Positions 11,745-20,004 of a stretch of DNA of 64,000 nt are shown one piece after another. Each line of letters begins with the position of its first letter. Position 1 is the stretch's first letter. The DNA is taken from contig NZ_JACJOF010000012.1 in the NCBI RefSeq assembly GCF_014695395.1, positions 186,001 through 250,000 of the forward strand, read 5' to 3'. The position numbers were made by a program, and so were the translations under genes. The notes beneath the pieces were generated by a model that searched no databases, was not told where the DNA came from, and saw only the letters and a program-made list of their open reading frames with translations. Origin of the DNA: Nodosilinea sp. FACHB-131 (GTDB lineage: Bacteria; Cyanobacteriota; Cyanobacteriia; Phormidesmidales; Phormidesmidaceae).

Positions 11745-14657
11745 TCACGTCATCTGCCGCTTAATCAACTGGCTAAACAGGCCCGGCTGCCCCGCCAGCT
11801 CCTCAAAGCTGCCCTGCTGCAGTAGGCGACCCGCCTCTAGCACATAGATGCGATCGGCATGGCGAACGGTGCTCAGGCGGTGAGCAACCACCACCCGCGT
11901 TACCTTCAGGCGATTCAGGCTTTCGATGACGAGCGCCTGAGTGCGGTTATCCAGAGCGCTGGTAGCTTCATCCATCAGCATGATTTTGGGCTTTACCGCC
12001 AAAGCGCGGGCAATCAGCAGCCGCTGGCGCTGGCCTCCCGACAGGTTGCTGCCCCCCTCGCTCACCACTGTATGCATCTGCATGGGCATGGCGCGCAGGT
12101 CGGCAGCCAGGCCCGCTTTCTCCGCAGCATCCCAGGCATCATCTAGCGTAATCAGCGCACCTCCAGACAGATTCTCAAAGATCGACCCGGCGCTGAGGCG
12201 GCTGGTTTGCAGCACCACCCCACACTGGCGGCGCACCGCCACCACATCCAGCCCAGACATCGCCTGCCCGTCATAGTAGACGCTGCCCGCCTGGGGTGTA
12301 TCGAACCCCAGCAGCAGCCGCATGGCGGTTGATTTGCCTGAGCCCGATGGTCCCACCAGGGCAATAAATTCCCCCGGTTTAGCCTCAAAACTGACGTTGT
12401 CGAGAATCACTGGCCCTTCGTCGTCATAGCGAAACGTGACCCGGTCTACCGAGAGCAGGCCCGAGAGCGGACCCGGATCGGCCTTGGTCAGATTTACCTC
12501 TGGCTCAGCCTGCAAGATAGGGCTAGCCCGTTGCCATAGGGGCACCACATCCAGCAGATCCACTAGGGTATCGCTGAGGCTGGTGGCCCCAGCAACGAAG
12601 GTGCCAAAGGCCACCGAAAAGGCCAGGAACGTTCCTGTGGAAAGCTTCTCATCGGCACTGCTCAGCATTTGGCTAGCCAGCCAAAACAGCGCCATGGTGG
12701 TGACAATCGGCAGCACTGTGTTGAACACCGCCACCGCATCTTCGAGCTGCTGGGTGCTGAGGGTGAGGCGAAACTGCTGGCTATAGCGCTGGCCCCAGAT
12801 GGCAAAGGCCCGCTCCTCGGCCCCAGCCATGCGCAGCTTAGCAATACCGTTGATCAGCTGCACCACCAGACCGTAGAGCTGGCCCTGAATTTCCAATAGG
12901 GGACGGTACCGACGCACCAGCACCAGTCCAGAGGCTACAGTCACCGCCATCACCACTAAGCCAACAACTATTGCTACCCCAGCCAGCAATGGGCTGTAGT
13001 AGATCAGCAAACCCAGGTTCAGCAGTGAGAAAGTTCCGGCAAACAGCCCTTGCAGGGCCGAGCCGCTAAGCTTGCGGCGAATCGTTGAGATACTCGACAC
13101 CCGCGAAGCCAGGTCACCCGTAGGGTATTGGCGAAAGAAGCCGGTTTTGAGCTTTAGCAGCCGATCCCACACGGCGGCTTGCAGGTGGGCATCGGCCCCA
13201 GTTTCGACCCGCAGGGTGGCGATCGCCTGCGCCAGTTGAAAGCTCGCCGCCCCAAAGGCCGCTGCCAGCAGGCCTAGCCCAATTTGCCAAAGCAGCGCGC
13301 GATCGCCGTAGGGCACCACCGTATCTACCAGCACTGCCGTGGCCTGGGGCACCACCATGCCGATCAGCGTAGCGGCAAGGCCCGTGAGGCCAATCATTAG
13401 CCAGTCGCGCCCCTGACCGCGAAAGGCAAACCGCAGCAGGGAGAGGGCGTTGAGATTGTCGGTGGGCAGGGGCCGGTAGAAGACGAAGGCAACGGGGTCG
13501 AGGTAGGCAGCGAGGGTGGGGGTGAGGGGGAGGTGATGGGGTGATGGGGAAGATGGGGAGGTGGGGGAGTTGAGGGAAGGGGCGAGTCCAACCGGCGCAT
13601 AAATTGCGTAGCGGGGGCCAGCCATGGGAAGTAGGGCAACCGGCGATCGCCCCTCCTTTGTATAGGCCACCAGCGGGCCGCAGTCCTGTCGCCACCATTC
13701 ACCGCGCAGCAGCACCCGACGCAGACGTAGTTGAGAGGCGCGGGCGATCGCATCCAACGGCTGCTTCATTCGCGCCCCATTCTCTGATGCCGCAGGGGGT
13801 TGAATGGTCACACCCAGAGCTTTGCCTACAGCTCCGGCCACCGTTAGCAAAGGGGATTCTGTAGAGTCGATCTCATCGCTTTCGAACACGCCCGCCAGGC
13901 TGTGGACGACATTTTCAGTCACGCTCTGATTGAGCTGCTGGCGCTGCTGAAAGCGCTTCAAGCCAAGGCGCTGCTGACGGGCATCGATCTGCTCAATGGT
14001 GCCAAAGCCGTAGCGGTGAAACTGGGCTACGCCCCGAATCAGCACCTTGCGGCTGGTGACTTCGGCAGTGGGGCGGGCGAAAAACTCGATGTGATCTTGC
14101 GCCTGCATATAGGTGCCCCGGCCGAGGGGAAAGCAGCCCAGTTCAGGCGTCAGCGGAAAGGCGGGGTTGCCCATCCAGGTGGCGGTGCCCTGCTGCATAC
14201 GAATCCACAGCACCTCAGCGTCGGGGCGGCAGACCTGGCCTCGCGTCAGCGAGATGTAGTGAATTTCCGGCACCTGTCCAGTTTGGGCGGGTTTAGGAAA
14301 GCCATCGATTGTGCCCCAGTGGTGAATCCAGAGATCGAGCAGGGCTTTGAGTTGCGGCGTAGGGCAGTCAGTGGCGTCGATTTCGCTCAGGGGCAGGGGA
14401 GCAATTTCGGCGGGTTCGAGGGCGATCGCCATCAAACCCAAATGAGTAATTGGGCATATGTCAGCGGCAAAGAGGGCTTCCCCAGCAGGGACGCTGAAAA
14501 GAAAGCGCCGCTTGCCGCTGGGTTGGCCATTGGCGAAAGGCACAGCGAAGAGAGCAACGTGGCCCGATTTCACCTGCCAAAGCTGGGTGGGGTCAGTCAG
14601 CAGCAGCGGCTGGTTGGCAGTGATGGTGCGGGGGGTGGCGAGGATGGGGAGGAGCAT
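11745..14657 (-). CDS. NHLP/NHLM-type peptide-export ABC transporter, second subunit (peptidase-less)
   Basis: 970 residues. A long N-terminal region (about 1-390) begins with a cupin-like barrel (LLTDPTQLWQVKSGHVALF) and contains no active C39 peptidase. It is followed by a six-helix ABC exporter domain and an ATPase with Walker A GPSGSGKST, signature LSGGQRQRLLIARAL and Walker B IMLMDEATSALD. This length and order match the second ABC protein of NHLP/NHLM bacteriocin systems (TIGR03797-like). A Pro/Ser/His-rich insert just before the membrane domain is encoded by G-rich simple sequence near 13500-13580. It probably pairs with the peptidase-containing ABC protein encoded upstream. Confidence 0.88.
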   Translation of the reverse strand: MLLPILATPRTITANQPLLLTDPTQLWQVKSGHVALFAVPFANGQPSGKRRFLFSVPAGEALFAADICPITHLGLMAIALEPAEIAPLPLSEIDATDCPTPQLKALLDLWIHHWGTIDGFPKPAQTGQVPEIHYISLTRGQVCRPDAEVLWIRMQQGTATWMGNPAFPLTPELGCFPLGRGTYMQAQDHIEFFARPTAEVTSRKVLIRGVAQFHRYGFGTIEQIDARQQRLGLKRFQQRQQLNQSVTENVVHSLAGVFESDEIDSTESPLLTVAGAVGKALGVTIQPPAASENGARMKQPLDAIARASQLRLRRVLLRGEWWRQDCGPLVAYTKEGRSPVALLPMAGPRYAIYAPVGLAPSLNSPTSPSSPSPHHLPLTPTLAAYLDPVAFVFYRPLPTDNLNALSLLRFAFRGQGRDWLMIGLTGLAATLIGMVVPQATAVLVDTVVPYGDRALLWQIGLGLLAAAFGAASFQLAQAIATLRVETGADAHLQAAVWDRLLKLKTGFFRQYPTGDLASRVSSISTIRRKLSGSALQGLFAGTFSLLNLGLLIYYSPLLAGVAIVVGLVVMAVTVASGLVLVRRYRPLLEIQGQLYGLVVQLINGIAKLRMAGAEERAFAIWGQRYSQQFRLTLSTQQLEDAVAVFNTVLPIVTTMALFWLASQMLSSADEKLSTGTFLAFSVAFGTFVAGATSLSDTLVDLLDVVPLWQRASPILQAEPEVNLTKADPGPLSGLLSVDRVTFRYDDEGPVILDNVSFEAKPGEFIALVGPSGSGKSTAMRLLLGFDTPQAGSVYYDGQAMSGLDVVAVRRQCGVVLQTSRLSAGSIFENLSGGALITLDDAWDAAEKAGLAADLRAMPMQMHTVVSEGGSNLSGGQRQRLLIARALAVKPKIMLMDEATSALDNRTQALVIESLNRLKVTRVVVAHRLSTVRHADRIYVLEAGRLLQQGSFEELAGQPGLFSQLIKRQMT

Positions 14658-14692
14658 GGGAAAGTGGAGGGAGCATAGGAAATTGGAAATAG

Positions 14693-15229
14693 TTATTGAA
14701 GCGGCGCAGCCCCAAAGGTGGCATTAAAACGACGACACCAAATAGCAACCGATTGGTAGTCATCTAAGTTGACATCGGCTGAAATGGCATAACTTTGGGC
14801 ACCGCTAAAGGATTCAAGCTCCGCCAAGACAACATATTCTCCCTCTTGCAGCGGAAAAGCCGGTGGCTCCGTTGAGCCAATTACATCCTCTGACCGATGA
14901 AGGACTACGACTAAATCAGGCCCCATTGAGGAGGTTTGAAATGTTTCGTCTAGCTCTAAAACAAACTGACCACCACTGTTAATAATTCTGGCCACTCCAG
15001 CTGTGTCATGCTCCCCAGAAACAAAATTACCCGACCTAATGACATCTGCCTTTGATTCTGGATTGTTGATAGACTCTTCAGAGTCACTGGCAGCACTTGC
15101 CTCAGCTGCAACGTCTTCGGATACAGTCATCGTCGTTGAGTTATCCTTAACTGCCTCAGATTGACCGGGCGCACAGGCCACCATTAGGGAAATGGAAAGG
15201 CTTAGCAGTAGAAATCGCTTTAATTGCAT
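14693..15229 (-). CDS. DM13-domain lipoprotein
   Basis: 178 residues, GAGGA before the ATG. The lipobox LMVAC places the lipidated Cys at residue 19. An acidic Ser/Ala/Glu linker (about 25-65) leads to a DM13 domain (GNFVSGEHDTAGVARI, then LVVVLHRSEDV, YVVLAELESFSGAQSY and the conserved Cys in VAIWCRRFNATFGAA). DM13 domains are predicted redox or electron-transfer modules on the cell surface. Its place between the two ABC exporter genes, on the same strand, is unusual and suggests that it works with the exported peptide or the export machinery. Confidence 0.85.
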   Translation of the reverse strand: MQLKRFLLLSLSISLMVACAPGQSEAVKDNSTTMTVSEDVAAEASAASDSEESINNPESKADVIRSGNFVSGEHDTAGVARIINSGGQFVLELDETFQTSSMGPDLVVVLHRSEDVIGSTEPPAFPLQEGEYVVLAELESFSGAQSYAISADVNLDDYQSVAIWCRRFNATFGAAPLQ

Positions 15230-15402
15230 AATGTCCTCAGATAAAGTTGCGAGCTTGAAGGCACTATAAAAAGCCTGTCTGAGACAACCCTGAGAACGGT
15301 TGGAGATAATGCTGAATTGGGTAACCGTAGCCCTGGGAATTTTTTAGCGCACGAGTTAGGCCAGCAGATCCCCGACCAGAAGGAGTAGGGGTGGATCTAC
15401 AT

Positions 15403-17715
15403 TCACCCTGCCTCGCTCTGAATCAGCTTTCGGTACAGCCCCCCCGATTCCCACAGCGACTCGTGGGTGCCGCGCTGCACCACCCGGCCCTGGTCAAACA
15501 CCAAAATTTCGTCGCAGTCGCGGATGGTGCTGAGGCGGTGGGCGACGATGACGCAGGTGCAGCCTCGTCGCCGCAGGTTTTGGTCAATAATTTGTTCGGT
15601 TTCGGTGTCGAGGGCGCTGGTAGCTTCATCCAAAATCAAAATTGAGGGGTTGCTCACCAGGGCCCGAGCGATTTCGAGGCGTTGACGCTGGCCGCCGCTG
15701 AGATTGGCGGCTCCTTCTAGCAGCGACGCGCTGAAGCCGTAGGGCAGAGCCAGAATGGCGTCTGCGATCGCAGCATCCTCAGCCGCACGACGCAGATCGA
15801 CTTCGGGAATGGTGGTGTCCCACAGGGTGAGGTTGTTGCGGATGGTGCCCTCAAAAATCAGAATGTCTTGCTCGACCACGGCGATCGAGTTAGTTAGCAC
15901 GGCGCGGGGAATTTGAGAGCGGCAGACACCGTCAAAACAGATTTTTCCTGATCTTGGCTCGTATAGCCCTGCTATAACTTTTGCCACCGTCGATTTTCCA
16001 GAGCCACTGCCCCCCACTAGCGCTACTCGCTGCCCTGGCTGAATTGACAGGCTGAGTCCTTCAATCAGCGGTGGCTCCAGGGGATGGTAGCCGAAAGCGA
16101 GTTCGTGGAGGGTAATGGAGCCGGTGAGGCGGTGGGGGAGGGGAGATGAGGGAGATGGGGAGGATGAGGGAGATGGGGAGGATGAGGGAGATGGGGAGGA
16201 TGAGGGAGATGGGGAGGATGAGGGAGTTAGAGAATCAGAGTTTTTCTGCCTTCTGTCTTCCTCATTTCCCCATCCCCTCATTTCCTCATCACTTAGAAGC
16301 TGCTGATCCACAGAGTTTCCCAGCACGTCATCGAGCCTGGTCAAATTTCCCTGAAGGGTTTGCAGGGTACTGGCGAAGCGCACGAGGGCGTTGACGGGGC
16401 GCTGGAAACTGACCATGAGAAGCTGAAAGGCAACCAACATGCCAATGGTGAGGTCGCCGTTAATAACGCGCCAGCCGCCGACTACCAGCAGGGCCAGGCT
16501 GGCCAGCGCGGAGAGCAGGCTGGGCAAAATGCCGAGGATTTGGTTGGTGAGGCCTAGGTCTTGCTGAGCGTTGATAGATTTGGCGTAGTAGCCGGCCCAG
16601 CGGGCGAAGAAGTCAGACTCTAGGCCAGAGGCTTTGAGGGTTTCCATAGTTTGCAGACCGGCGATCGCTACACCCGCCGCCTTGCCTGTTTCCTGAGACA
16701 GCCGCAAGTTAGCATTCACCCGCTCCCTGGCAATCCACTGCAAGGTGGCGACGTTGATGGCGGCAAAGCCGACGGCGATCGCCGTCAGCAGCAAATCATA
16801 CTGAGCCATCGCCAGGGCGTAAAACAGCACCAAGACGAGGCTGATCAGGGTACTGATTAGGCGACCCGAGAGCACGGTAGCCACCTCATCGTTGAGGCGA
16901 ATGCGGCTGGCGATTTCGCCGGCAAACCGCTGGGCGTAGAAGCCCACGGGCAGCCGCAGCACGTGCCACACAAAGCGGCTGGTGCTACCGACGGCAAGCT
17001 TGATTTGCAGCGATCGCAGATATTGGAGCTGCAATGCCGTCAACCAACCCTGCACCACCGCCGTCAGCAGCAGCCCAATTAATAAATAGGGCAGCCACTC
17101 AAACCGTCCTTCTAGCAAAACAGAATCCACAAAAATGCGGCTGAGGGCGGGCAGCACCAGGGCGGGCAATACAAGAAACAGTCCAGCAATCAATGCCAGC
17201 AGCAGAATGCCCCAGGAGCGGTGGAGCCGCTGCCAGAGCGATCGCACCATGCTTGGTCTGCGCCCCCCTTTTTCAAATTCTGGCCCAGGGACAAAGGTCA
17301 GGGCAATTCCCGTGTAGCCCTCGTCAAACTCAGCGGCGGTGACCCGACGGGGGCCAGTGGCGGGGTCGTTGAGGTAGATCCAGCGAGAGTCTTGACCTTC
17401 GACCACCAAAAAGTGGTTGAAGTGCCAAAACACAATAAAGGGCGGATCCAGCTCCAGCGATCGCTCCAGGCTTTTCTTAAAGCCCTTAGCCTCCATGCCG
17501 TAGCTGCGGGCGGCCTTGAGCAAGCTGGCAGCGGTCACCCCATCGCGCGACACGCCGCAGACCTGGCGCAGTTTGGCCAGGGGCACAATTTTGCCGTGGT
17601 AGCCTAGCACTTTGCCCAGGGCTGCCGCACCGCATTCCACCGCCTCCATTTGCAGCACGGTGGGAGTTTTGACCCGTTTGGGTCGGGGTTTTATGGGAGG
17701 AATAAAAAAGACCAT
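15403..17715 (-). CDS. C39 peptidase-ABC transporter (NHLP/NHLM type, leader-cleaving)
   Basis: 770 residues. The N-terminal C39 peptidase has Gln22, Cys28 (LQMEAVECGAAAL), His101 (HFNHFLVVEG) and Asp117 (YLNDPATG), the full set needed to cut after a double-glycine leader. A six-helix membrane domain follows, then an ATPase with GGSGSGKST, LSGGQRQRLEIARAL and ILILDEATSALD. Between the last two domains lies a Ser-Pro repeat linker encoded by an 18-bp minisatellite. The natural substrate candidate is the GG-leader peptide encoded divergently at 19837-20004. Confidence 0.93.
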   Translation of the reverse strand: MVFFIPPIKPRPKRVKTPTVLQMEAVECGAAALGKVLGYHGKIVPLAKLRQVCGVSRDGVTAASLLKAARSYGMEAKGFKKSLERSLELDPPFIVFWHFNHFLVVEGQDSRWIYLNDPATGPRRVTAAEFDEGYTGIALTFVPGPEFEKGGRRPSMVRSLWQRLHRSWGILLLALIAGLFLVLPALVLPALSRIFVDSVLLEGRFEWLPYLLIGLLLTAVVQGWLTALQLQYLRSLQIKLAVGSTSRFVWHVLRLPVGFYAQRFAGEIASRIRLNDEVATVLSGRLISTLISLVLVLFYALAMAQYDLLLTAIAVGFAAINVATLQWIARERVNANLRLSQETGKAAGVAIAGLQTMETLKASGLESDFFARWAGYYAKSINAQQDLGLTNQILGILPSLLSALASLALLVVGGWRVINGDLTIGMLVAFQLLMVSFQRPVNALVRFASTLQTLQGNLTRLDDVLGNSVDQQLLSDEEMRGWGNEEDRRQKNSDSLTPSSSPSPSSSPSPSSSPSPSSSPSPSSPLPHRLTGSITLHELAFGYHPLEPPLIEGLSLSIQPGQRVALVGGSGSGKSTVAKVIAGLYEPRSGKICFDGVCRSQIPRAVLTNSIAVVEQDILIFEGTIRNNLTLWDTTIPEVDLRRAAEDAAIADAILALPYGFSASLLEGAANLSGGQRQRLEIARALVSNPSILILDEATSALDTETEQIIDQNLRRRGCTCVIVAHRLSTIRDCDEILVFDQGRVVQRGTHESLWESGGLYRKLIQSEAG
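16145..16226. repeat. 18-bp minisatellite inside the ABC transporter gene
   Basis: Four perfect copies of GATGAGGGAGATGGGGAG (16145-16216) and a 10-base partial. On the coding strand the unit gives a six-residue Ser/Pro repeat between the membrane domain and the ATPase. Eighteen is a multiple of three, so copy-number change keeps the frame. Confidence 0.95.
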
Positions 17716-17889
17716 GACGAGGCTAATAGGTTATGACAAATTCCCCTCTTCTGCCTTTCAAGGGAGGGGATAAAGAGAGTCTTTGACGGGAAGAAACCCG
17801 AGAATCGAGTCTCAGCCAGCAACCAGGACCAGAATCTGGACAGCGTTGCATCGGCTAAAAACATTAGTGTTTTCCTCAATACCCCCTAC

Positions 17890-18444
17890 CTACCGATCTA
17901 AAAACGGCAGCACAAAGACAATCGGCGGCTTCTGAGCCAGGGTAATACGCCCTTCTACCGCCACCCCCGGCACGATGGTGTTGGGCGGCATCGCCTGCAC
18001 CATAGGGGCTAGGTGAGCCAACACCTCAAGTCCGCCAGCGTAAGGGTCTTCACCCCGGCGCGCCTGACTCACAGTGAGAGCGCTGGGCTCAACCACTTCG
18101 GCTACCTTGGCAGCGATGCCCGGCTCGTTATAGACCACCAAGGTTTCGGGCATGAGCACTACGGGCATGCCTGCCTGTAGCTGTCCTCGATACTGGTTGT
18201 CGAAAATCAGTAGGGCCACCAGCTGCGGTGAATCGTCGGATTGCACCAGCAGCCCTCTGCCGTGGGTGGTGACGGGCACCCGCCCAACGATGCTCCAGAG
18301 CAAACCCAGAGCCAGCAGTACGCCGAGGGTGCCGAGGGGGAGCCAGGTCTTGAGCGTCACCAACTTCATCAGTTCATCCAGCCGTTCAGGGGACGACAGC
18401 CGCTCTAGAGATTCTTGCCGAAACAGGTTCTCTCGCTCAGCCAC
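17890..18444 (-). CDS. Miniature HlyD-like secretion protein of the NHLP system
   Basis: 184 residues. The opening FRQESLERLSSPERLDELMKLV followed by one transmembrane helix (about 36-55) and a VTTHGRGLLV beta strand is the start typical of NHLP-system HlyD-like proteins (TIGR03794-like). Those usually run to several hundred residues with a long coiled coil; here the hairpin is missing and the barrel part continues directly (QYRGQLQAGMPVVLMPE, then VEGRITLAQKPPIVFVLP). It overlaps the upstream cyclic-nucleotide-binding gene by 8 bases. It may only form a ring around the ABC proteins rather than span the periplasm. No gene is seen in the 174 bases after it. Confidence 0.82.
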   Translation of the reverse strand: MAERENLFRQESLERLSSPERLDELMKLVTLKTWLPLGTLGVLLALGLLWSIVGRVPVTTHGRGLLVQSDDSPQLVALLIFDNQYRGQLQAGMPVVLMPETLVVYNEPGIAAKVAEVVEPSALTVSQARRGEDPYAGGLEVLAHLAPMVQAMPPNTIVPGVAVEGRITLAQKPPIVFVLPFLDR

Positions 18445-19489
18445 GATGGTTTACCCCCAGTTGAGCCAGCATCCAGCCAAACTTTTTAGCCCCTTCAGAC
18501 ACCTGTTGTAGGTCGGCCATATCCAGTTCGGCATCATCTATTGCCGGACCGGGTGTCATACCGGGTACAGTGGGCTCGACCAGGCACATGCTCACAGTCT
18601 GCAGCTGCGCCATGAGCTGTATAGCGATCACCCGGTAAAAGCGGGAGGCAAAACTGTCATCGACCTGAAGCTTGGTGGCCAGGGTTTGGCGCGGCACAGC
18701 AAAGACCAGGCATTCTGTGAGCGATCGCACTGTCACCGGCAAGGGTTGATAGTCTAAAAAAGCCATCATCCCCGGCATGCTGCCTTGGGAAAAGGTAGCA
18801 AAGGCAGGCTGATCGCCAGCACTATTCGTCAAGCCCAAAAAGCACAGAGCCAATGGGTTGACGCTGGTTGAAGGGGCCGACACCGCCATCTGCCCATCCA
18901 GCAAAATATATAGCGCCTCTACCGGGCGGGCCGCCCGCAAAAGCACCCGGCCCGCCGGCACAGTCTCAACTTGACCGAAGGCGGTGAGCCAGTCGATGTC
19001 GCTGTCGCGCAGTTCACTAAATACGGTCAATACGTCGTTGTCCGATTGCTTGCCCCAGAACCGGATGCGATCGGGGTGTTCAAGAGTACGGCGCAGGCGA
19101 TCGGAGAGCAAAAGGGCGATCGCATGGTAAAAATGAGCGGCAAAGGCAATATCTTCCGCGAGCTTTGCCGTGACCTGGGCAATGGGCAGCGACAGAATCA
19201 GCGTAGGCTTGAGCGCCTTTACCGCCGTTCTGCTAGGGACATCGAGCAGGGGGTTAACACCCACCATATTGCCCTGGCTCAGTTCGTCGATCAGTACGGC
19301 TTCGTCTACAGTCGCACCTGGGATGGCAAAACTTTCGCCCACGGTGCCGTCAATGATTAAAGCAATGCGATCGCCAGCGATAGAAGAATGCAGTAGGTTT
19401 TGGCCTGCCGCTAGAGTTTGGCGATCGCCGCAGGCAATCATCCAATCTAAATCAGCATTACTTAAGACGCGCAGCAGTGTGTCTGTCAT
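18437..19489 (-). CDS. Tandem cyclic-nucleotide-binding-domain protein of the export locus
   Basis: 350 residues with two cNMP-binding (CAP_ED-like) folds, about 8-140 and 165-325. Each has the pattern of an aromatic/Leu helix, LLHSS/LLRAA, IALIIDGTV/LYILLDGQM, a glycine turn (GNMVGVNPLLD / GSMPGMMAFLD) and a C-terminal FYxxIA helix. No HTH follows, so it is not a CRP-type DNA-binding protein. It is the first gene of the export operon and overlaps the HlyD-like gene by 8 bases. In NHLP loci such proteins are thought to gate or scaffold export; this is inference. Confidence 0.85.
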   Translation of the reverse strand: MTDTLLRVLSNADLDWMIACGDRQTLAAGQNLLHSSIAGDRIALIIDGTVGESFAIPGATVDEAVLIDELSQGNMVGVNPLLDVPSRTAVKALKPTLILSLPIAQVTAKLAEDIAFAAHFYHAIALLLSDRLRRTLEHPDRIRFWGKQSDNDVLTVFSELRDSDIDWLTAFGQVETVPAGRVLLRAARPVEALYILLDGQMAVSAPSTSVNPLALCFLGLTNSAGDQPAFATFSQGSMPGMMAFLDYQPLPVTVRSLTECLVFAVPRQTLATKLQVDDSFASRFYRVIAIQLMAQLQTVSMCLVEPTVPGMTPGPAIDDAELDMADLQQVSEGAKKFGWMLAQLGVNHRG

Positions 19490-19836
19490 TAAGCCTATAA
19501 GCGCAGCATCCTTATCCTAAAAGCCCTTCATAAATAAAGCGTTCATTTGCAAAAATAAAAGATTTTATCCAACAGACCCGCATAGACTTTAGCCTTTTTG
19601 ATCTCAAGGATACATTTTGGCTGAAATCGTCTAAGCTTTTTGCGAACAGAATTGAAAAATAGAAAAATGTACGATCCGACTGGTCAGAGAGTTAAGCACT
19701 TCAGCGCAATACCTGATCTACAAAGCTTTTCAGCAGAGCCTAAGGAATGCTGCAGTCAATGCCTGATTTTTTCAAGCAGACAAACAGTGAGGCCGCTCTT
19801 AAGGTAGAGATGTAACCCGATTAAGAGGGCTTCCAA
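19490..19836. promoter_or_regulatory. Divergent promoter region of the export operon and its peptide gene
   Basis: 347 AT-richer bases between the minus-strand operon start (19489) and the plus-strand peptide gene. Both transcripts must start here, but I could not single out a -10/-35 pair. A 46-codon frame at 19667 lacks a ribosome binding site and is not called. Confidence 0.5.
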
Positions 19837-20004
19837 ATGATTGAAGATACTGTAAAAGCTGCTACAGAAGATGATTCTTTGTCTGATGAGCAACTCAAAG
19901 AAGTATCGGGCGGCGTTGATTTCGATCGGCTCCGTGAGGAAAATCTAGATAAAGACGCATCCCGCCTAGACGAAATTCGCCGCGAAAATCTAGAGAAAGA
20001 CTAG
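19837..20004 (+). CDS. Double-glycine leader peptide, probable cargo of the export locus
   Basis: 55 residues, ATG with AGAGG (19824-19828) eight bases upstream. The leader is acidic and ends SLSDEQLKEVSGG at residues 14-26, the classic double-glycine pattern (Leu, Glu-Leu/Val spacing, GG) cut by C39 peptidases. The predicted mature part is 29 residues, highly charged, with two imperfect copies of RLREENLDKD / EIRRENLEKD and no Cys or Thr and a single Ser, so it is not a lanthipeptide, sactipeptide or heterocycle precursor. No modification enzyme is nearby. It is divergent from the transporter operon and is followed by its own strong terminator. The match to the adjacent peptidase-ABC protein makes export likely; its activity (toxin, signal, matrix peptide) is unknown. 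Confidence 0.88.
   Translation: MIEDTVKAATEDDSLSDEQLKEVSGGVDFDRLREENLDKDASRLDEIRRENLEKD

Follow-up and report, generated by a model that had tools for sequence, protein, structure and literature searches.

A double-glycine leader peptide beside an NHLM-type C39 exporter in Nodosilinea, and its repeat unit shared with Sec-exported array proteins

The GG-leader peptide gene and its neighbouring export operon

The window, a 64-kb stretch of DNA from Nodosilinea sp. FACHB-131, contained a 55-codon gene on the plus strand and, divergent from it on the minus strand, an operon for a C39-type export system. The features were as follows:

19767..19784, + strand: conserved upstream element TTTTTTCAAGCAGACAAA (consensus TTTTTTCAGGCAGACAA), the likely promoter/operator of GG peptide genes
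19837..20004, + strand: GG-leader peptide gene, 55 codons (leader, residues 1–26; core, residues 27–55, two 15-residue units)
19837..19914, + strand: leader MIEDTVKAATEDDSLSDEQLKEVSGG, predicted to be cleaved by C39 after GG; S, D, L and GG invariant in 17 homologs
19915..20001, + strand: core VDFDRLREENLDKDASRLDEIRRENLEKD, two units, predicted continuous helix
20064..20097, + strand: terminator-like hairpin of 14 pairs
18437..19489, − strand: cNMP-binding transport-associated protein (TIGR03896; 197 bits vs. a cut-off of 161)
17890..18444, − strand: short HlyD-family protein of 184 aa, with TIGR03794-type N- and C-terminal parts but without the long middle region
15403..17715, − strand: C39 peptidase-permease-ATPase (TIGR03796), with the Cys, His and Asp motifs VECGA, HFLVVEG and NDPATG
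14693..15229, − strand: DM13-domain lipoprotein, missing from the operons of some relatives
11745..14657, − strand: second ABC permease/ATPase (TIGR03797)

Translation of 19837–20004 gave MIEDTVKAATEDDSLSDEQLKEVSGG directly followed by VDFDRLREENLDKDASRLDEIRRENLEKD and a stop codon, with an AGAGGG ribosome site ahead of the ATG; it was the only ORF below 250 codons in the 64-kb window that fitted the GG-leader pattern. The core carried a net charge of −4. Full-length homologs were found in 17 of 98 relatives, every one of the same family, and in their alignment S16, D17, L20, G25 and G26 of the leader and L-R-x-E-N-L-x-K of the core were invariant. Named matches to the peptide and its unit came from Nodosilinea, Leptolyngbya, Halomicronema, Phormidium tenue, Oscillatoria sp. 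CS-180 and uncultured relatives. A codon comparison of 10 same-genus orthologs showed synonymous sites to be nearly saturated while the protein was conserved, both in the core (pS 0.68, pN 0.062; dS 1.82, dN 0.064; dN/dS approximately 0.035) and in the leader (pS 0.66, pN 0.059; dS 1.55, dN 0.062). Based on the ribosome site, the terminator, the conserved frame, the purifying selection and the synteny described below, the 55-codon gene is real and under selection.

These results agree with the initial annotation, which had proposed a gene with a good ribosome binding site, its own terminator, a GG leader and a core without Cys: no Cys was found, and the homolog search that it had suggested returned peptides with conserved leaders beside C39 transporters, their frames intact and their cores conserved. 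Its repeat, given as two copies of RxENLxKD, was right in copy number but too short, as the unit spans 15 residues (V-D-F-D-x-L-R-x-E-N-L-D-K-D-A, in corrected form (V/I)(D/N)FD(E/Q)LR(R/Q)ENLDKDA), of which RxENLxKD is only the invariant part.

Searches of Pfam, NCBIfam and PDB sequences with the peptide and with the array proteins described below yielded no real family; marginal matches were dismissed as repeat artefacts with scattered names. The leader resembled TIGR01847 and NF038167 weakly and below threshold, the score against the latter (CTB family bacteriocin) being 15.3 bits vs. a cut-off of 32 and confined to residues 15–34. No Pfam or NCBIfam match to a nitrile-hydratase-like or Nif11-like leader (NHLP or N11P) was obtained for the 55-aa peptide, and no relatives were present in the viral contigs and plasmids searched. 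AlphaFold modelled the peptide as one isolated helix, with which a Foldseek run was uninformative.

Both ABC subunits of the exporter exceeded their curated cut-offs (1087 vs. 853 bits for TIGR03796 and 966 vs. 709 bits for TIGR03797). The 184-aa HlyD did not, reaching 55.6 bits vs. 156.2 for TIGR03794 over model positions 1–56 only; it aligned to both ends of a 513-aa HlyD paralog from a second NHLM locus of the same genome and lacked a middle region of approximately 300 residues, which we take to contain the helical hairpin typical of HlyD proteins. This short form (about 184–215 aa) was kept in all these operons and occurred in approximately 50 genomes of the class. Without the middle region, the pump possibly does not engage a TolC-like channel, and its cargo may reach the periplasm only. 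Long HlyD proteins (approximately 500 aa) were seen at other NHLM loci, including the second one of this genome (G000:C18, approximately 166.6 kb).

The order GG peptide/cNMP-HlyD-C39 ABC(-DM13)-ABC2 was kept in all informative contigs of 15 relatives, always with the GG gene divergent from the operon, and a divergent form of the same synteny was seen in two further families. Among the genes scanned from 7.9 to 26.7 kb there were only members of export, two-component, DM13, chlorite-dismutase-like, zf-UBP and DUF families and no modification enzyme, in agreement with the initial annotation; several two-component systems flanked the operon. Its proposal that the peptide is the cargo of the locus at 11745–19489 is likewise well supported by the conserved synteny and the intact C39 residues, and the gene product is probably exported, unmodified, as the dedicated cargo of this NHLM-type C39 system. 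Not foreseen there was that the core unit also occurs in Sec-exported arrays with which it co-varies, so that the peptide does not stand alone. Among the signal, matrix and membrane-active roles that it had offered, the last is the least likely, given a core that is both acidic and hydrophilic and that also forms part of large soluble arrays.

Array proteins and unit types

In the same genome, the core unit was found a second time in a 149-aa protein with a Sec-type signal peptide MKRFALSILAASAAAIAIVPVAYA, which is followed by three and a half copies of VDFDQLRQENLDKDAVNFDRTRRENLEKSSA:

L002:1255-1704 (G000:C4, about 138.04-138.49 kb): 149-aa Sec array gene

Relatives had up to about nine such genes with 3–14 units each, and type-1 arrays (see below) often consisted of pairs of 15-residue units separated by linkers of approximately 8 residues (VYEVLAKG, VVEIQVKG). 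A unit-pair profile matched 29 of 390 genomes of the class, all from one family. The eight units of one array gene (L095) differed at 82% of synonymous vs. 2.6% of nonsynonymous sites (pS 0.82, pN 0.026), indicating that each is held by selection rather than being a recent duplicate. AlphaFold gave no fold for the array protein (pLDDT 43), and no match to the curlin repeats of Pfam was obtained.

No neighbours of the Sec arrays were conserved beyond one orthologous locus. At the Nodosilinea array locus (L002, L084, L103, L112, L113) a VOC-family dioxygenase-like gene was syntenic downstream, and in several cases a calcium-repeat secreted protein as well. In two genomes, small secreted proteins with NLARNGYF(E/Q)(D/E)(E/Q)GIPSHG adjoined type-5 arrays (L291, a 120-aa ORF, and L304, a downstream ORF).

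Divergent operons, located by searching with the short HlyD, encoded GG peptides with other cores, and the Sec arrays of their own genomes carried the matching unit. In total five unit types were distinguished, in three families:

Type 1: VDFDELRRENLDKDA; GG peptide and array, including this genome
Type 2: IQATRLEHLDNQTKAV (RLEHLDNQTK); GG peptide in G055, G058, G029, G042, G049, G053 and G057, arrays in the same genomes
Type 3: LTGRSAQEFTDGLGNK (EEFxxGLGNK); GG peptide and array in G062
Type A: LTDRFDEARRENLDK (RFxxARxxNLDK); GG peptide and arrays in G121, G262, G280, G198, G204 and G239
Type 5: PPSGDSNPSDLxNxTVDTS; GG peptide and arrays in G222 and G318

A relationship is recognisable between types 1, A and perhaps 3, but not for type 5. 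The fit of the GG core to the array of its own genome was better than in all 100,000 permutations (p<1e-5; 12 genera, permuted at genus level without a tree model). Matching was also seen at the level of types (exact p=1/120) and within type A alone (exact p=0.017), both likewise calculated without a tree model.

Pairing was not obligatory. No array was detected in G021 and G015, which have the GG peptide, and many genomes had arrays with no GG peptide found. Draft assemblies may hide members. In G251 and G274 the GG peptide of the operon (EDGG...) differed in type from the Sec array, and for the GG type EDGGFLHQTEG and its kin no Sec counterpart was found. Some GG genes encoded two or more leader-core modules; beside short-HlyD exporters, polyprotein GG peptides with 2–5 tandem modules (L252, L249, L256, L254, L258, L251) had the cores EDGGFLHQTEG, EDGGQYSK and HDSGQYSGEL, again with no Sec counterpart detected.

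Upstream elements of arrays and GG genes

Upstream of Sec arrays of types 1, 2, 3 and A and of one type-5 gene, (C/T/G)T(C/A/T)AG half-sites were spaced at 10–12 bp. Chains of at least three direct-repeat half-sites every 11 bp, a period typical of OmpR/PhoB-type regulators, preceded 31 of 50, 2 of 2, 2 of 3, 5 of 6 and 1 of 6 array genes by type, compared to 1.5% of 523 control upstream regions. As this promoter is common to different unit types, the arrays give the impression of a single functional gene family, irrespective of their units. Nodosilinea arrays, including that of this genome, had GAACG/TAACG at 10–11 bp steps instead, as judged by eye. The strict pattern of the type-1 promoter, applied to two genomes, marked almost only Sec-array genes, plus one promoter with a lost gene. 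Orphan type-1 array promoters were observed at L135 (G048:C30:139058) and L148 (G056:C2:283363); one was a promoter and ribosome site with no gene after it, the other was cut short where it meets a umuC-like gene, at the 3′ end of the latter.

The operon-linked GG genes of relatives had a different upstream element (consensus TTTTTTCAGGCAGACAA), of which TTTTTTCAAGCAGACAAA was the single site in this genome. Only one further exact genomic site was found, in a relative (L131, G010:C1:5144152), where the copy TTTTTTCAGGCAGACA lay approximately 190 bp before a cellulose synthase-like glycosyltransferase gene. Joint control of GG and Sec genes through the 11-bp array found no support, with only about two GG genes showing it, and the SigJ J-Box of hormogonium genes was set aside as a common promoter, its consensus (GGGaAtacT) being different.

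Interpretation and comparison with known systems

The reading that we favour, to which we give somewhat less than an even chance, is that the secreted repeats form a homotypic system, the peptide exported by the pump either acting on the Sec-exported arrays or assembling with them. Cleavage behind GG by the C39 domain would set free a helical peptide of 29 residues and two units, while the array proteins, as their families suggest, would be exported by Sec and lose their signal peptides. The multivalent arrays would then form the bulk material in the envelope or the extracellular matrix, and the peptide of one or two units, made from its own locus, would nucleate, cap or loosen their assembly. 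If this interaction requires matching units, the units would change together in each lineage. More tentatively, filamentous cyanobacteria could possess a two-route system of a C39 mini-peptide and dispersed, co-regulated Sec arrays, in which a lineage-specific unit, of at least five types, must match for homotypic recognition or co-assembly; such a system would provide a self-specific code for matrix or recognition. The homotypic reading is favoured by the presence of one unit in the GG peptide and the Sec array of one genome across five types, by the 12-genus permutation, and by the common array promoter and the strong constraint on each unit. It is weakened by the non-obligatory pairing (G021, G015, G251, G274 and the array-only genomes), by the GG genes being without the arrays' promoter, and by the AlphaFold models, with neither an array fold nor more than a lone helix for the peptide. 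Part of the matching would also be expected, without any physical interaction, if the GG and Sec units of a lineage share an ancestor.

This last consideration can be extended to a separate explanation, which we regard as unlikely: a single ancestral gene would have given rise to GG peptides and Sec arrays through exchange of leaders, lineage by lineage, and the two would have separate roles today, the matching reflecting ancestry or gene conversion. The type-1 Sec linkers (VYEVLAKG, VTEIQIGG) do resemble worn-down internal GG leaders (LEGVAGG), and the loose pairing and the different promoters of GG and Sec genes would fit. However, Sec arrays with unrelated units keep the same promoter and style of signal peptide, so that leader exchange alone would need repeated replacement of units inside pre-existing Sec genes, and the high synonymous divergence between units indicates that L095 and L088 have not undergone DNA conversion recently. 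Slightly better, though still rather improbable, are the prospects of a peptide signal, with the C39 peptide and the Sec arrays both serving as precursors of one short signal (about 15–30 residues), the arrays being multi-copy, prohormone-like and cut at their linkers, and a receptor of the same species reading the unit. Near-invariant units between variable linkers, fast change of the unit per lineage with matching inside each genome, poly-GG precursors with repeated cleavage sites and the two-component systems flanking the operon are all consistent with signalling; in two unit types, however, neighbouring units join directly, with neither a linker nor any evident processing site, a search beside the Sec genes found no co-varying receptor, and the array dose would be very large. 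An antimicrobial or kin-discrimination pair, in which a microcin-like effector, the C39 peptide, would be countered by Sec arrays that carry its unit and serve as envelope decoys for self-protection, seems quite improbable. The bacteriocin-type exporter and the lineage-specific matching are in line with it, and array-only genomes would fit immunity without toxin, but there is no immunity gene next to the peptide gene, the core is acidic, hydrophilic and free of Cys with no modification enzyme at hand, and the peptide is retained in G021 and G015, where no arrays were found.

The NHLM/NHLP export system was reportedly described by Haft in 2010. The locus resembles it in its C39 ABC1 and ABC2 subunits above curated cut-offs and in its TIGR03896 cNMP protein, but differs in its 184-aa HlyD below the TIGR03794 cut-off and in a cargo with neither a nitrile-hydratase or Nif11 leader nor a modification enzyme found nearby. 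By family assignment, the exporter is thus an NHLM system with a variant HlyD, and the peptide classes as a C39 GG peptide that is neither NHLP, N11P nor CTB. The curli subunits CsgA and CsgB are major and minor repeat proteins, secreted partners that share a unit. Repeat-bearing secreted partners with a common unit are likewise present here, but with no curlin repeat match in Pfam, two export routes, and a unit predicted to be helical rather than amyloid-like. For three of the five types, the unit sequences had no match in the openly accessible literature searched, and we know of no described system that combines a C39-exported peptide with multi-copy Sec arrays whose unit changes in concert between lineages.

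By analogy, EbfG1-4/PteB of Synechococcus elongatus is the best functional precedent: small GG peptides are processed by a C39 transporter with no modification enzyme (PMC4997328), three of the four EbfG form amyloid (PMC9981879), and C39-exported GG peptides can be biofilm matrix proteins (PMC4997328, PMC9981879), the mature EbfG parts being reported to lack homology in other cyanobacteria (PMC4997328). The core described here differs in being a charged helical repeat held in common with Sec-exported arrays, a pairing of which the consulted parts of the EbfG papers make no mention. A survey of cyanobacterial bacteriocin clusters, which covered 20 kb around them, catalogued short GG precursors (Wang 2011, PMC3140520); its C39-HlyD clusters with short unannotated GG precursors resemble this locus, but the word 'repeat' is absent from it and dispersed Sec partners fall outside its 20-kb search. 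Exporter and GG peptide are of known kinds; we rate the matched two-route repeat system as new, and our confidence in any one function is moderate. Should the pairing prove functional, it would give a purpose to the whole class of cyanobacterial 'bacteriocin-type' short-HlyD exporters, define an undescribed family of secreted repeats and a regulon with a distinctive promoter, and offer, for mat-forming cyanobacteria, a code of self/non-self or of matrix assembly that can be put directly to the test.
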